A stretch of DNA of 20,202 bases. Source: a virus. The DNA is taken from the IMG/VR virus record IMGVR_UViG_3300025108_000497, positions 1 to 20,202 of that record. One strand, 5' to 3'. The translations under genes were made by a program, and so were the position numbers. Every line of letters begins with the position of its first letter. Positions within the stretch are counted from its first letter, which is position 1. The notes under the pieces are model-generated. The model was not told the origin of the DNA. It was given only the letters and a program-made list of their open reading frames with translations, and did not search any database. Shown here one piece after another: positions 9,264-20,008 of the stretch.

Positions 9264-10315
9264 ATTTAGACCATGAATTTTCTATTACTTCTGATAAAGA
9301 AGAAACAAAACAGAAAATAATTAAATATATTCGTGATAATGATATTTCATTACCAATGAAAGTAATATCAGAAGAAAAAATGTTATCATCATTTCAAGAA
9401 TTAAAAATGGTTGATACAAGTAAATTATGGAAATCAGAAAAGTTTTATTTAAAATATAATTATAAATATTCAAATCCATTAGGTTATTTTAATTCAAGTA
9501 ATATTGGTAATGTTTCATCAAATTATTTTTTTCAAGAATTAAGAATGAAATGTAATTCAATAACATCACCTAGCCCTTATAGAGTATGGAATAATGACAA
9601 ATTTATGAATACATTGTTAAATGCACTTTTTTCATTGAAAATAAAAAATATTAATGTAAAAACTATATTTTCATTGATTGGTGTTAGAAAATATATTGCT
9701 ACACAATTTAAACCTATAATCGCTAAAGCCATATTTGAAAAATTCAACTCAAAAAATGTTTTAGATTTTTCTTCTGGGTGGGGTGATCGTTTATCAGGAT
9801 TTTGTGCCTCATCAACAACAAAATCATATATAGGTATAGATCCAAATAATGATCTTCACTCTCTTTATTTACAACAACAAAAATCATATAATACTGATAA
9901 ACAAATTAAAACAATATGTTCACCATCAGAAGATTATGAATTTATTGATAAAGTTGATACTATTTTTACATCACCACCATACTTTGATTTAGAAAGATAT
10001 ACCTATGATGATAAACAATCATGGGTAAGATATAAAAAACTAAATGATTGGAATGAAAAATTTTTATTTAAAACATTAAAAAAAGCATGGAATGTATTAG
10101 AGCCAAATGGGGTATTATTATTGAATATTTCTGATGTTTATACACATCATGTAATTAATAAAATATGTGATCCTATGAATGATTTTATTAAAACATTACC
10201 AAATGCAAAATATGAAGGATATATTGGTATGAAAATGTCAAAACGACCAAATCAAAAAACTCATAAAAAAGGTGTATTTTGTGAGCCTATTTGGGTATGG
10301 AGCAAAAGAGAATAA
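9260..10315 (+). CDS. DNA methyltransferase (N4-cytosine or N6-adenine type)
   Basis: A 351-aa SAM-dependent methyltransferase. The SAM-binding motif appears as VLDFSSGWGDRLSGF, followed by the acidic strand end IGIDPNN. The catalytic motif is VDTIFTSPPYFDLERY; SPPY is typical of DNA amino-methyltransferases. Downstream GVLLLNISDVY fits the later strand of the Rossmann fold. The N-terminal 150 residues are variable and may recognise DNA. The gene is even more AT-rich than its neighbours: three 60-nt lines I counted gave about 13-22% GC, against about 30-37% for lines in MCM and the nuclease. It is bounded by 15-nt direct repeats, which suggests recent acquisition. It overlaps the upstream gene by 4 nt and the downstream nuclease by 1 nt, so it could pair with that nuclease. 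Methylation site unknown. Confidence 0.8.
   Translation: MNLDHEFSITSDKEETKQKIIKYIRDNDISLPMKVISEEKMLSSFQELKMVDTSKLWKSEKFYLKYNYKYSNPLGYFNSSNIGNVSSNYFFQELRMKCNSITSPSPYRVWNNDKFMNTLLNALFSLKIKNINVKTIFSLIGVRKYIATQFKPIIAKAIFEKFNSKNVLDFSSGWGDRLSGFCASSTTKSYIGIDPNNDLHSLYLQQQKSYNTDKQIKTICSPSEDYEFIDKVDTIFTSPPYFDLERYTYDDKQSWVRYKKLNDWNEKFLFKTLKKAWNVLEPNGVLLLNISDVYTHHVINKICDPMNDFIKTLPNAKYEGYIGMKMSKRPNQKTHKKGVFCEPIWVWSKRE
10299..10313 (+). repeat. Right direct repeat flanking the methyltransferase gene
   Basis: GGAGCAAAAGAGAAT matches the left copy at 9247-9261 in 14 of 15 bases and ends on the first base of the TAA stop. If the two recombined, the methyltransferase would be lost cleanly: the 53-aa gene would end ...SKRE-stop and overlap the nuclease ATG. 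Confidence 0.55.
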
Positions 10316-10752
10316 TGCCAAGAGGCAAACAAAGTGGAATAACCTATGGTCAAAAAAAGCAATATGGTCAATCAGATACAGCACAACTTATAGCAATAGC
10401 CTCATACCTAAGAAAAAAATACAAGGCAAAAGTAAAACGTGAGGCATATCTTATATTCAATATTGACAACAAACTAAAGGGCATTAAGGAATTTGTAACA
10501 AAGGCTGATCTTAATGATTGTAGTGTGAAGAATCCTGACTTATTATGGATTGACAAATACGGTATGTGGATAGTGGAAGTTGATGGTGCTGTCCATGATA
10601 GAAAGGTAGAGAAAACATTAGAAAGAAACAGGTTGTTCAGAAACAATAACATTAAACTCATAGTGGTCAACCTTGCTGATTGTAAAGAATTAGAGTTAGA
10701 TATTTATGAATACATTGACAATGAAATATTGAGGTTAATAAAAAATGAGTAA
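10315..10752 (+). CDS. PD-(D/E)XK nuclease, DUF559/Vsr-like
   Basis: A 145-aa basic protein read from ATG 10315, which overlaps the methyltransferase stop as TAATG; a TTG-started form from 10291 is less likely. The core runs KNPDLLWIDKYG, then MWIVEVDGAVHDRK, then ERNRLFRNNNIKLIVVN. Asp75, Glu88 and Asp90 with His94 fit the PD...ExD...H pattern of the DUF559/Vsr-like branch of the restriction-endonuclease fold, where EVDG..H is characteristic. An N-terminal Glu in the KREAYLI helix may be the additional acidic residue. It probably cuts DNA. Options are a mismatch or junction nuclease for viral recombination, or the restriction partner of the adjacent methyltransferase. The fold call is strong, the biological role uncertain. 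Confidence 0.72.
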   Translation: MPRGKQSGITYGQKKQYGQSDTAQLIAIASYLRKKYKAKVKREAYLIFNIDNKLKGIKEFVTKADLNDCSVKNPDLLWIDKYGMWIVEVDGAVHDRKVEKTLERNRLFRNNNIKLIVVNLADCKELELDIYEYIDNEILRLIKNE

Positions 10753-12876: not shown

Positions 12877-13830
12877 GTGTCAGATGAACATTTTTTATTA
12901 GAACAATGGCATGACACCTTAGAACAATTCAGAGATGATTATGAAAAATGGGAAAGGCATACACTCAAAGATTATTTAGAAAGATGTGCAGAAATTATTA
13001 ATAATCAAATTAAATATAAAATGTTAGATATTAAAGTTGAGGGAATTAGTGCTTATCTATATGCACAATTAAACAAAGAGGGTATAACGGTTAGTGACCG
13101 ACATATACGCAGAAGCCTTCCTGATGATTACAAACAGAACTATAACAAAACGGACAACGTGTCCGAATTAGAAAAACAGAATTGGGAAATTATAGAAACA
13201 GAAGATCCAAGCATTAGATTAGAAAAGAATCAATTTAATGGTATTAAAATTAATGGTGTCGAACAAAGGGCAAAAGAAAATAAAAAAGAGGATATTGTGC
13301 AAAAACCATTAACACCCAAATTGAACAAAGATACAAGAGAATTAATTTATCTCAAATCATGTAGCAAACTAGCAAACAAATTCCATCTAACCTTTGAAAC
13401 CCTAATAGACAGATACAACAAATCTGATGATGTTCAGGAAATCATTGATAATGAGATAGGTAATGTGGAATTAAAGCTAGGTGAATATGCAAAGATGTGG
13501 GCTAACATAGAAAACGCAAAAGGTATGGTAGATTTAAGGCGTGACTTTGGAGAGTATGAAAAGATCATGGGAACGTTTATGATTGAAACAGGTGAAACTA
13601 TTGCCAGAATTGCACAGTTAATGGATTATTCAGAAAAATATGGTAGTATAGGATTACTAAGAGAGCCAAAAATTAGAGCTTTCTTTGAAAAAGAGGACAC
13701 ATATCCATTATACTTACGTTCATGTCCAAAGTGTTTTACTGATATTAGTCACGATATGAATTATAATATTGCCTTGTATCGTGCTTCAAAGGAATTAGGC
13801 ATAGACATTCCTGTTATCAAATACAATTAA
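12877..13830 (+). CDS. HTH-containing protein, possible TerS or regulator
   Basis: A 317-aa protein with GTG start at 12877; the next in-frame Met is 48 residues in and would delete a conserved-looking helix. Residues about 55-88 (EGISAYLYAQLNKEGITVSDRHIRRSLPDDYK) read as a helix-turn-helix, with the turn at KEGITVSDRHI. The middle is charged and helical. The C-terminus has a single CPKC pair near 286-289 with nearby His and a final LGIDIPVIKYN strand. It lies at the head of the late module, divergent from the minus-strand zinc gene and about 2 kb before terminase. Options are a DNA-binding regulator of late genes or a large terminase small subunit. The HTH is by eye; the function is open. 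Confidence 0.5.
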   Translation: MSDEHFLLEQWHDTLEQFRDDYEKWERHTLKDYLERCAEIINNQIKYKMLDIKVEGISAYLYAQLNKEGITVSDRHIRRSLPDDYKQNYNKTDNVSELEKQNWEIIETEDPSIRLEKNQFNGIKINGVEQRAKENKKEDIVQKPLTPKLNKDTRELIYLKSCSKLANKFHLTFETLIDRYNKSDDVQEIIDNEIGNVELKLGEYAKMWANIENAKGMVDLRRDFGEYEKIMGTFMIETGETIARIAQLMDYSEKYGSIGLLREPKIRAFFEKEDTYPLYLRSCPKCFTDISHDMNYNIALYRASKELGIDIPVIKYN

Positions 13831-18203: not shown

Positions 18204-19567
18204 TTGACGCAATAGGTAATCCAATCAATTACGATATTCAGGAAAATATTATACAAGAATCCAAAGTGCCATTAGCTAAAATAGTCAGATCAGATTATCA
18301 ACGTGAACAACCAATACAAGTCACCTTTGAACAGTTGATTAAATATCACGACAGGACACCACAATTACAAATAGCAGTATCATCTTATTCAGAATTAATT
18401 ACTGGCACAGAAATGAATGTTACCTGCAAGTCAGAAAAAGCAACAGAAACATTAAACGATTGGATAAGAAATGCAGATTTTTATGATAAGTTTGAAAACA
18501 TGGTCACTACCTGTTTAATCACAGGTAATAGTATCTTAGAGAAATTAGATGAGAATGACATACAAGATGTTGAGGAAGTAGATATGCAAACCATCATATC
18601 CAAGAAAAGAAATGAGTTTGGTGAACTACAATATTATGAACATAGAACAAATCATGGACAAACAGCCAAATTAGGTGAAGGAAAGCTAGGCAAATTTATC
18701 GAATTTAACTTAACAAACTATTCTAAACAAGCTTGGGGTAAGTCATTATTTTATTCACTAGCCATACCAAGAACAATAGGAAACAGAACAACAGCACCAT
18801 TAATAGAAATCATGTGGGGTGTCGAAGACGCTATGTCAGCAATTATCTTAAACAATGCTTATCCAATTACAACAATAACATATCCAGGAGCAAGTGATCC
18901 ATACTTAGAAAAAGAGGCAGTTAGGTGGCAAAAGTATAAGCCAGGTGATAAACGTGTCCAGAAGATAAAGCCTGAAATAGAATTTTTTGAAACATCAGGT
19001 AACAGTAAGTACACAGATTATATCGCACACTTAGAGAAAACCTTTGAGCTTGGCACACAATTCCCACACGACATAATGACAGGTGACTTTACAAGTCGTG
19101 CAAGTTCTGAAACAACAGATAACATTGTAATGAAAAGGGTTAGGGGTTATCAGAGATATTTGGCTAACAAACTAAAGGTGGAACTATTTGACAACATACT
19201 AATTCAGAACGGTTATGATCCAGAAGTGGAAGAATGTGATGTTACATTTACATCACAGAATGTCATAGAGTTAGAAGTGGCACAGATTAAGGATCTTACT
19301 ACACAGGGTATTATGACCAAAGGTGAATCAAGAGAATGGCTAAGATCCAACACAGGAATGGAATTACCTGATGATAAAGAGATTCAAGCTAACCAAGACG
19401 TACAATCAACAGTAGCCAAGAACGCACAGGACATAAAACAAGAGAAATTTATCCAAGAAAATATGAAGCAAATATCACAAGTAAAAGCAAAGCCAAAAGT
19501 AACGTGTAAGATGTGCAAGGAAGGACAACACGCATTATGCACCAAACGTAGATGTGAATGTCAATGA
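18200..19567 (+). CDS. Portal protein with Cys-rich C-terminal tail
   Basis: A 455-aa protein with the outline of a phage portal: an N-terminal region with a QLQIAVSSYSELITG helix, a central LITGNSILEKLD strand pair, a WGKSLFYSLAIPRTIGNRT loop/stem region, then the helix with FPHDIMTGDFTSRASSETTD and MKRVRGYQRYLANKLK, and a long C-terminal helix. It forms the dodecameric ring through which TerL pumps DNA. Location right after packaging genes agrees. Unusually, the last 20 residues (about 436-454) form a Cys/His-rich tail, CKMCKEGQHALC followed by TKRRCEC, absent from typical portals and similar to other Cys motifs in this window. The start overlaps the preceding stop by 4 nt. Confidence 0.82.
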   Translation: MIDAIGNPINYDIQENIIQESKVPLAKIVRSDYQREQPIQVTFEQLIKYHDRTPQLQIAVSSYSELITGTEMNVTCKSEKATETLNDWIRNADFYDKFENMVTTCLITGNSILEKLDENDIQDVEEVDMQTIISKKRNEFGELQYYEHRTNHGQTAKLGEGKLGKFIEFNLTNYSKQAWGKSLFYSLAIPRTIGNRTTAPLIEIMWGVEDAMSAIILNNAYPITTITYPGASDPYLEKEAVRWQKYKPGDKRVQKIKPEIEFFETSGNSKYTDYIAHLEKTFELGTQFPHDIMTGDFTSRASSETTDNIVMKRVRGYQRYLANKLKVELFDNILIQNGYDPEVEECDVTFTSQNVIELEVAQIKDLTTQGIMTKGESREWLRSNTGMELPDDKEIQANQDVQSTVAKNAQDIKQEKFIQENMKQISQVKAKPKVTCKMCKEGQHALCTKRRCECQ

Positions 19568-19791
19568 CAGAATTTGACGATTTGACTAAAAGGATCTTGG
19601 ATAAATTAGATGGTTTTGAAGATAAAATAGAAAGCTTGTGTGAAAGATTAATGAAAGTCGAGTATGAACTTAACACTCACTTTAAAGAAATAGAGGATAA
19701 ACAATCAAACAAAGATAGGAAGTTTTACATCATCATAGCAGGTATGGGTATTACATTTACTATGGTAGAAATCTTGCAGAATATTATTTAA
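19558..19791 (+). CDS. Coiled-coil/TM protein, XhlA-like
   Basis: A 77-aa protein read from ATG 19558, overlapping the portal end by 10 nt. Residues about 5-52 form an acidic heptad-rich coiled coil (LTKRILDKLDGFEDKIESLC and later LMKVEYELNTHFKEIED), followed by a basic DRK and a single hydrophobic segment IIIAGMGITFTMVEILQNII at the C-terminus. This coiled coil plus C-terminal anchor resembles the XhlA family of phage membrane-associated proteins linked to cell lysis. A virion scaffold or head accessory role is the alternative, given its place next to the portal. It is followed by the non-coding locus. Confidence 0.5.
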   Translation: MSMTEFDDLTKRILDKLDGFEDKIESLCERLMKVEYELNTHFKEIEDKQSNKDRKFYIIIAGMGITFTMVEILQNII

Positions 19792-19796
19792 TAGGC

Positions 19797-19804
19797 TTTA
19801 AATA
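19797..19804 (+). promoter_or_regulatory. TATA box of the ncRNA locus
   Basis: TTTAAATA centred about 26 nt upstream of 19827, the first base of the structured stem. No open reading frame starts near that point, which argues for transcription of a non-coding RNA. Confidence 0.55.
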
Positions 19805-19826
19805 GGTAATAACTAGCATTATAATA

Positions 19827-19955
19827 TAGCCGTCATGGGATATCTTGAGTTGTGGATTCTAGATACCTGAAAAAGATACCCATCTTAGGCTACCACCAAG
19901 ACGCATTTCGCGAGAGTGCCATAGGTATTTCCTATCATTGAGGTGGTATTTTTAC
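19827..19955 (+). ncRNA. Candidate structured viral ncRNA (about 130 nt)
   Basis: No gene fits this stretch, but two folded domains do. Domain 1: TAGCC (19827-19831) pairs with GGCTA (19888-19892). Inside it ATGGG-A-TATCTT (19835-19846) pairs with AAGATACCCAT (19873-19883), 11 bp with one bulged A and a 26-nt loop. Domain 2: TACCACC (19891-19897) pairs with GGTGGTA (19942-19948), enclosing two hairpins, GCATTT/GAGTGC with loop CGCGA (19903-19919) and ATAGG/CCTAT with loop TATTT (19921-19935): a three-way junction. The two outer stems share bases 19891-19892, so they may alternate. Own TATA box upstream, five Ts downstream. Locally richer in GC than its surroundings. A packaging signal, a 5' leader of the next gene or a host-targeting RNA are possible roles. 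No known RNA family recognised. Confidence 0.6.
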
Positions 19956-19965
19956 TTAATTTTTG
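19942..19965 (+). terminator. Stem end plus T-rich tract after the ncRNA
   Basis: The 3' strand of the outer stem (GGTGGTA, 19942-19948) is followed at once by five Ts, then a second T-rich stretch ending at about 19965. This fits an archaeal T-tract terminator for the ncRNA. Confidence 0.5.
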
Positions 19966-19978
19966 TTGACCTTATGGG

Positions 19979-19986
19979 TTTATATA
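19979..19986 (+). promoter_or_regulatory. TATA box for the gene at 20009
   Basis: TTTATATA centred 26 nt before ATG 20009, a textbook leaderless archaeal arrangement. It makes the upstream structured region unlikely to be merely this gene's leader. Confidence 0.6.
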
Positions 19987-20008
19987 GCCCTTTTTTGCTT
20001 ATAAAGAT

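Follow-up and report, generated by a model that had tools for sequence, protein, structure and literature searches.

The question raised by this locus is whether a gene-free stretch in a tailed-virus genome encodes a structured RNA of its own or is merely the leader of whichever gene follows it. The window, by which we mean the whole stretch of DNA analysed here (20,202 nt, positions 1 to 20,202 of IMG/VR record IMGVR_UViG_3300025108_000497), is a tailed-virus fragment whose terminase is 44% identical to the terminase of the Nitrososphaera provirus Pro-Nvie1, and which also encodes an MCM helicase, a Dam-like methylase and a matrixin-type protease. The host of this virus is likely to belong to the marine Thaumarchaeota, the ammonia-oxidising archaea. 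Marthavirus, which comprises tailed viruses of marine Thaumarchaeota (cited in PMC7678222), and Pro-Nvie1 are probably of the same virus group, and no such RNA was reported for either of them in the literature searched. The initial annotation, made without any database search, had proposed an undescribed structured RNA with its own promoter in a 217-nt stretch without a credible gene, which we describe in short as lying between two structural genes, and had named beforehand what would refute it, viz. absence of compensatory base changes, loss of the stems or a conserved reading frame in relatives. The features of the locus, in window coordinates, are as follows.

19558-19791: 77-aa gene, the upstream neighbour
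19792-20008: gene-free stretch of 217 nt, from the stop of the 77-aa gene to the next ATG
19797..19804, plus strand: TATA box of the RNA gene, TTTAAATA, with a TTT-AATA core invariant in the alignment
19826..19953, plus strand: structured noncoding RNA, predicted transcript of about 125-130 nt, 5' end at about 19826-19829 and 3' end in the T-tract
19828..19891, plus strand: domain 1 (module D1), consisting of outer stem, internal loop, inner stem and apical module
19847..19872, plus strand: apical module E4, the nearly invariant 26-mer GAGUUGUGGAUUCUAGAUACCUGAAA with the palindrome UCUAGA inside
19892..19947, plus strand: domain 2, a three-way junction closed by ACCACC/GGUGGU
19903..19919, plus strand: hairpin P2, bulged at one base and capped by a GNRA tetraloop, which is GCGA here and GUGA in relatives
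19921..19935, plus strand: hairpin P3, AUAGG/CCUAU, with a variable U-rich loop
19949..19964, plus strand: T-tracts, the proposed terminator (runs 19949-19953 and 19960-19964)
19979..19986, plus strand: separate TATA box, TTTATATA, of the next, leaderless gene, 30 nt before ATG 20009
20009 (ATG): small zinc-finger-like gene, the downstream neighbour

No conserved reading frame was found through 19792-20008 in the window and its relatives, and ARAGORN predicted 0 tRNA or tmRNA genes in the window. The folding energy of the single sequence was not better than chance (z -1.3, with 19 of 200 shuffles folding at least as well), and neither strand reached significance (z -1.3 and -1.4). The window by itself was therefore not decisive, and folding energy was excluded from the evidence. 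A portal-protein scan provided 29 loci of relatives, and the RNA was present behind the portal operon in every one of these loci which covered the site and was not cut by a contig end; the model CM R1 matched it in all site-covering relatives with E values from 1e-26 to 1e-44. Across 14 distinct relatives and 32 base pairs, 96.7% of the helix cells were paired and 10 of the 32 pairs had changed on both sides, which was reached in 0 of 500 shuffles. The unpaired cells in this 14-sequence alignment were outer pairs of the junction helix misplaced by MAFFT; when this helix was realigned without a break and the alignment was extended to three lineages at a greater distance (L065, L071 and L070), 99.3% of the junction core was paired and 13 of its 19 pairs had changed on both sides. 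In APC-corrected covariation (mutual information) over 1773 column pairs, ranks 1-5 were all taken by structural pairs, and the covariation stood far above shuffles and slid controls. The R1 and R2 models also detected the junction in more distant viruses. A fixed helix within the E4 apical loop was not supported on the MAFFT alignment. All three of the refuting outcomes named beforehand were thus decided in favour of an RNA, and the claims of a structured RNA with its own promoter and of a stretch without a credible gene held on comparative evidence (compensatory changes, the TATA spacing given below and the absence of any Rfam or phage match), with transcription remaining an inference.

The outer stem of D1 has 4 bp (AGCC/GGCU) and is followed by an invariant internal loop, GUC/CUUA, with 19832-19834 opposite 19884-19887, and by an inner stem, AUGGG.U.AUCUU/AAGAU.A.CCCAU, of 11 pairs with one bulge; in the 14 distinct relatives helix 2 of D1 was paired in 100% of cells, with 4 pairs changed on both sides. 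The helix closing the junction, which had been put at 7 bp, has 6 pairs in the window and 6-8 in relatives. The junction strands AAGA(C) and CAUUGA are invariant. Changes on both sides were seen in 5 of the 6 pairs of P2, while in P3 the pair 35-51 of alignment A3 was the top covarying pair, occurring as UA, CG and GC types. The outer stem of D1 and the junction closing helix directly adjoin. It had been suggested that these outer stems, sharing two bases, may be alternative folds; this was not supported, since covariation at the shared bases follows the junction closing helix, and we infer instead that the two are stacked. In L065, L071 and L070 the junction is kept and domain 1 is replaced by unrelated hairpins.

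In the window's clade 57 of 59 copies have the TATA box 35-36 nt ahead of the GUCA loop, despite a varying spacer; contigs present as several loci were counted more than once here. The 30 nt after the junction contained 11-19 T in all 28 loci, so that the claim of a T-tract behind the junction (19949-19953 and 19960-19964 in the window) held. That the T-tracts act as terminator is inferred, and the ends of the transcript are likewise inferred from TATA spacing and T-tract and were not measured. The first downstream gene belonged to 15 unrelated families in 27 loci, which implies that the RNA is not the leader of one gene, and the last upstream gene varied too. The RNA was absent from an outgroup with a 67-70% identical terminase, in which the protease lies directly behind a TATA-like sequence, suggesting that the RNA is a separable element. 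The claim that the next gene has a separate TATA box and that the locus is not simply its leader therefore held, with TTTATATA at 19979 and a downstream gene that is not conserved.

It can still be argued that the RNA is a cis-acting leader or attenuator of the next unit, originally the protease/capsid operon, controlling read-through or translation. Its constant position before the protease-capsid block speaks for this, as do the protease gene of L071, which starts 36 nt behind the RNA, and the fixed distance of 57-59 nt to the first gene in most of the window's clade, where the families are unrelated. Against it, the first genes are too diverse to meet the criterion of a conserved regulated downstream gene, the T-tracts and a second TATA box intervene, and D1-type RNAs occur at other sites in other viruses (see below). 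We regard this explanation as unlikely. A further possibility is an element acting at the DNA level, such as a cruciform or a packaging, replication or recombination site, and in its favour the site is one of gene-content exchange, with the cargo changing right behind the RNA. On the other hand, the U-G pair of P2 is kept in 11 of 16 sequences, and since in DNA, or on the opposite strand, the two positions would be mismatched, selection appears to act on a plus-strand RNA and not on a DNA cruciform. Promoter spacing is also conserved, only one strand is used, and the structure travels with its TATA box in other viruses, making a DNA element very unlikely.

Some observations were made at and behind this site. 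In the window (19949-20008) and at the same site in relatives, genes are rapidly exchanged after a similar T-tract/TATA stretch. Immediately after the RNA in L023, at 10282-10400, a paired stretch contains CAUUGAGAAUAUCUUUGGC twice and has no Rfam match. L072 has at the homologous site (12990-13390) about 350 nt which are gene-free and strongly folding; by model R2 this stretch is not homologous to the RNA, and it has no Rfam match either.

A second hairpin, E2, was seen beside the RNA, and following it led to many unrelated viral contigs. It has the pattern [7 bp]-AAAGA-[AYGU NGAU ACRU]-CAU-[7 bp], and over 35 distinct copies 95.5% of the cells were paired and 8 of 11 pairs had changed on both sides. 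Its loci, together with those of a further module, E3, that also follows D1, are listed here.

E2: L065 10329-10368; L070 5338-5377; L071 10654-10693; L010 12298-12337; and about 40 other loci
E3, behind D1: L191, L161, L165, L153, L159, L171 and L155

E2 stands apart from the RNA: in L071 it lies upstream of the portal gene, whilst in L065, L070 and the window's clade it precedes the protease gene; from its mostly pre-protease position in the window's relatives, it is likely to lie just past the end of the window. Several matches to the E2 pattern in large contigs (L117, L139) lacked the outer helix, look like chance and were discarded. In unrelated contigs E2 was often found directly behind a hairpin with the GUC/CUUA loop of domain 1, and a scan for the D1 hairpin gave 59 contigs, 44 of them distinct. 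The sequence of the D1 outer stem varies freely and stays paired, and in an alignment across unrelated viruses, including the window's copies, 10 of 14 pairs had changed on both sides. It may be noted that the loop and most of the inner stem were already set by the pattern used for scanning, and that beyond the window's clade it is chiefly the outer stem that carries the covariation. A TATA-like box was present 30-38 nt upstream of D1 in 34 of 43 copies from other viruses. D1 always comes first, as the 5' module, and is followed by E2, E3 or E4. The E4 26-mer is identical in L151, L157 and L195, and one base different in L163 and L198; in these contigs it forms a separate hairpin behind D1, and in the window's clade it is grafted on top of D1.

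Several of the D1 contigs encode a terminase and a portal only 26-32% identical to those of the window, in the same order (about 30% in L151); the E4 26-mer and the GUCA/UCUUA loop of domain 1 recur at such distances, and in distant viruses in which a terminase was seen D1 lay about 0.8-2.1 kb upstream on the same strand. The portal adjoining another D1 copy is related to portals of haloarchaeal viruses, which suggests that the family belongs at least partly to archaeal tailed viruses. The RNA of the window meets the definition of the D1 family by its outer stem, GUC/CUUA loop, G-rich/C-rich stem, TATA box about 33-36 nt upstream and 5' position of D1. The initial annotation must accordingly be corrected in one respect: the RNA is not unique to the window's virus group, because its domain 1 is common to a wider, also undescribed family. 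As to the other modules observed, E3 is a hairpin with an AGGUC loop followed by a hairpin with the loop CACGUAAGA, and upstream of E2 the place of D1 may be taken by other 5' modules, CUCGGAACGUCUAUU...AGAGUCCGACUUAGCC in L123, L137 and L132, and GUUCGCUGAUUAGAUUAAAUUCGUCACGAACC in L124, L142 and L150.

The near invariance of the E4 apex across unrelated viruses could be taken to mean a base-pairing small RNA, whose exposed loops (the E4 apex and the AAGAC/CAUUGA strands) anneal to mRNA of the host or the virus, or whose UCUAGA forms a kissing homodimer. In L013 (5499-5631) UCUAGA is changed to UCGCGG, which is still self-complementary with G-U pairing, leaving a kissing dimer possible. Against this, no target was identified (host genomes were outside the search), the palindrome varies in one sequence only, and E4 and the other modules were neither significantly similar nor significantly complementary to E. 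coli 16S or 23S rRNA, so that we consider base pairing an unlikely explanation. Mimicry of rRNA, raised by the resemblance of GGAUUCUAGAUACC to the 16S 790-loop GGAUUAGAUACC, was also rejected, as no module matched E. coli 16S or 23S significantly on either strand.

In comparison with known RNAs, a search of Rfam 15 with the whole window returned nothing at gathering level, and the RNA alone matched no family at E up to 5; relatives gave chance matches only, and the D1-E2 arrangement gave no match. Phage records contained no match for the window RNA, D1-E2 or D1-E4, and no description of the RNA was found in the open-access literature searched. The claim that no matching family is known therefore held for Rfam and phage records. 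Pattern matches in genome contigs (L096-L099) fell within bacterial genomes and were set aside as apparently due to chance or to coding sequence. Within Rfam, the phage records and the literature searched, and with host genomes not covered, the RNA family and its modular build appear to be new, although virus-encoded structured RNAs are already known as a kind. The compact three-way junction, the invariant strands and the GNRA arm could also suggest a self-cleaving or otherwise catalytic RNA. However, there was no match to hammerhead or any other Rfam ribozyme at E up to 5 and no conserved cleavage-site context was recognised, and we hold catalysis to be very unlikely.

The pRNA of phi29 type (RF00044) resembles the window RNA in being small and structured, in containing a three-way junction and in coming from a tailed dsDNA virus, and the window RNA is encoded next to portal and terminase genes, but the RF00044 model did not match it. 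pRNA works with gp16-type ATPases and has a different junction sequence; the virus of the window has a large terminase. GOLLD and ROOL, large phage ncRNAs, are similarly independent structured RNAs of uncertain role in tailed viruses, but neither showed an Rfam match to the window RNA. Both are several times longer and are bacterial or phage RNAs. Archaeal box C/D and K-turn RNAs are alike in their archaeal setting, in the CUGA in the E4 loop and in possible tandem G-A pairs; however, the RUGAUGA box C is missing (there is no UGAUGA in 19826-19953), CUGA occurs once, and no canonical K-turn was found by reading the RNA sequence, nor was there an Rfam match. In the haloarchaeal tailed virus HFTV1, noncoding transcripts antisense to genes have been described (PMC12542753). 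These are likewise made by the virus and are the closest published case that we found for an archaeal tailed virus, but the window RNA is intergenic and structured and not antisense.

Taken together, the RNA gene itself is well supported by comparative evidence, which shows its structure, conservation, promoter placement, modularity and lack of a fixed neighbour, whereas its transcription and function are inferred. The reading towards which we incline, without regarding it as settled, is that of an independently transcribed, modular structured ncRNA gene acting in trans in a tailed virus probably of marine Thaumarchaeota, in which transcription, trans action and protein binding are all inferred. 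RNA polymerase would start about 30 nt after TTTAAATA and produce an RNA of about 125 nt ending in the T-tracts and built of the 5' hairpin D1, the apical effector loop E4 and the three-way junction with its GNRA-capped arm. D1 may be the handle that these RNAs share for binding protein, with contacts to the targets made by the exchangeable 3' modules. Protein binding is preferred, by inference, since invariance falls on bases of the internal loop and the junction and not on long exposed single strands. It speaks against this best reading that throughout the window's clade the RNA is found in a single place, between the portal operon and the protease operon, as might be expected of a cis element, and against a common handle that domain 1 is replaced in L065, L071 and L070, so that the handle is not universal among junction-bearing RNAs. 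A bolder version of the trans-acting reading, which in our judgement could equally well prove right or wrong, is a combinatorial family of virus-encoded effector RNAs, in which D1 and exchangeable E2, E3, E4 and junction modules are reshuffled between viruses, each with its own partner, in the manner of adapters.

Few structured ncRNAs of archaeal viruses have been described, and we found none reported for viruses of ammonia-oxidising archaea, which rank with the most abundant cells of the ocean. With its strong covariation, defined promoter and exchangeable modules, the family supplies specific sequences to look for in metatranscriptomes, and a way into the question of how these uncultured viruses seize their hosts or assemble virions.
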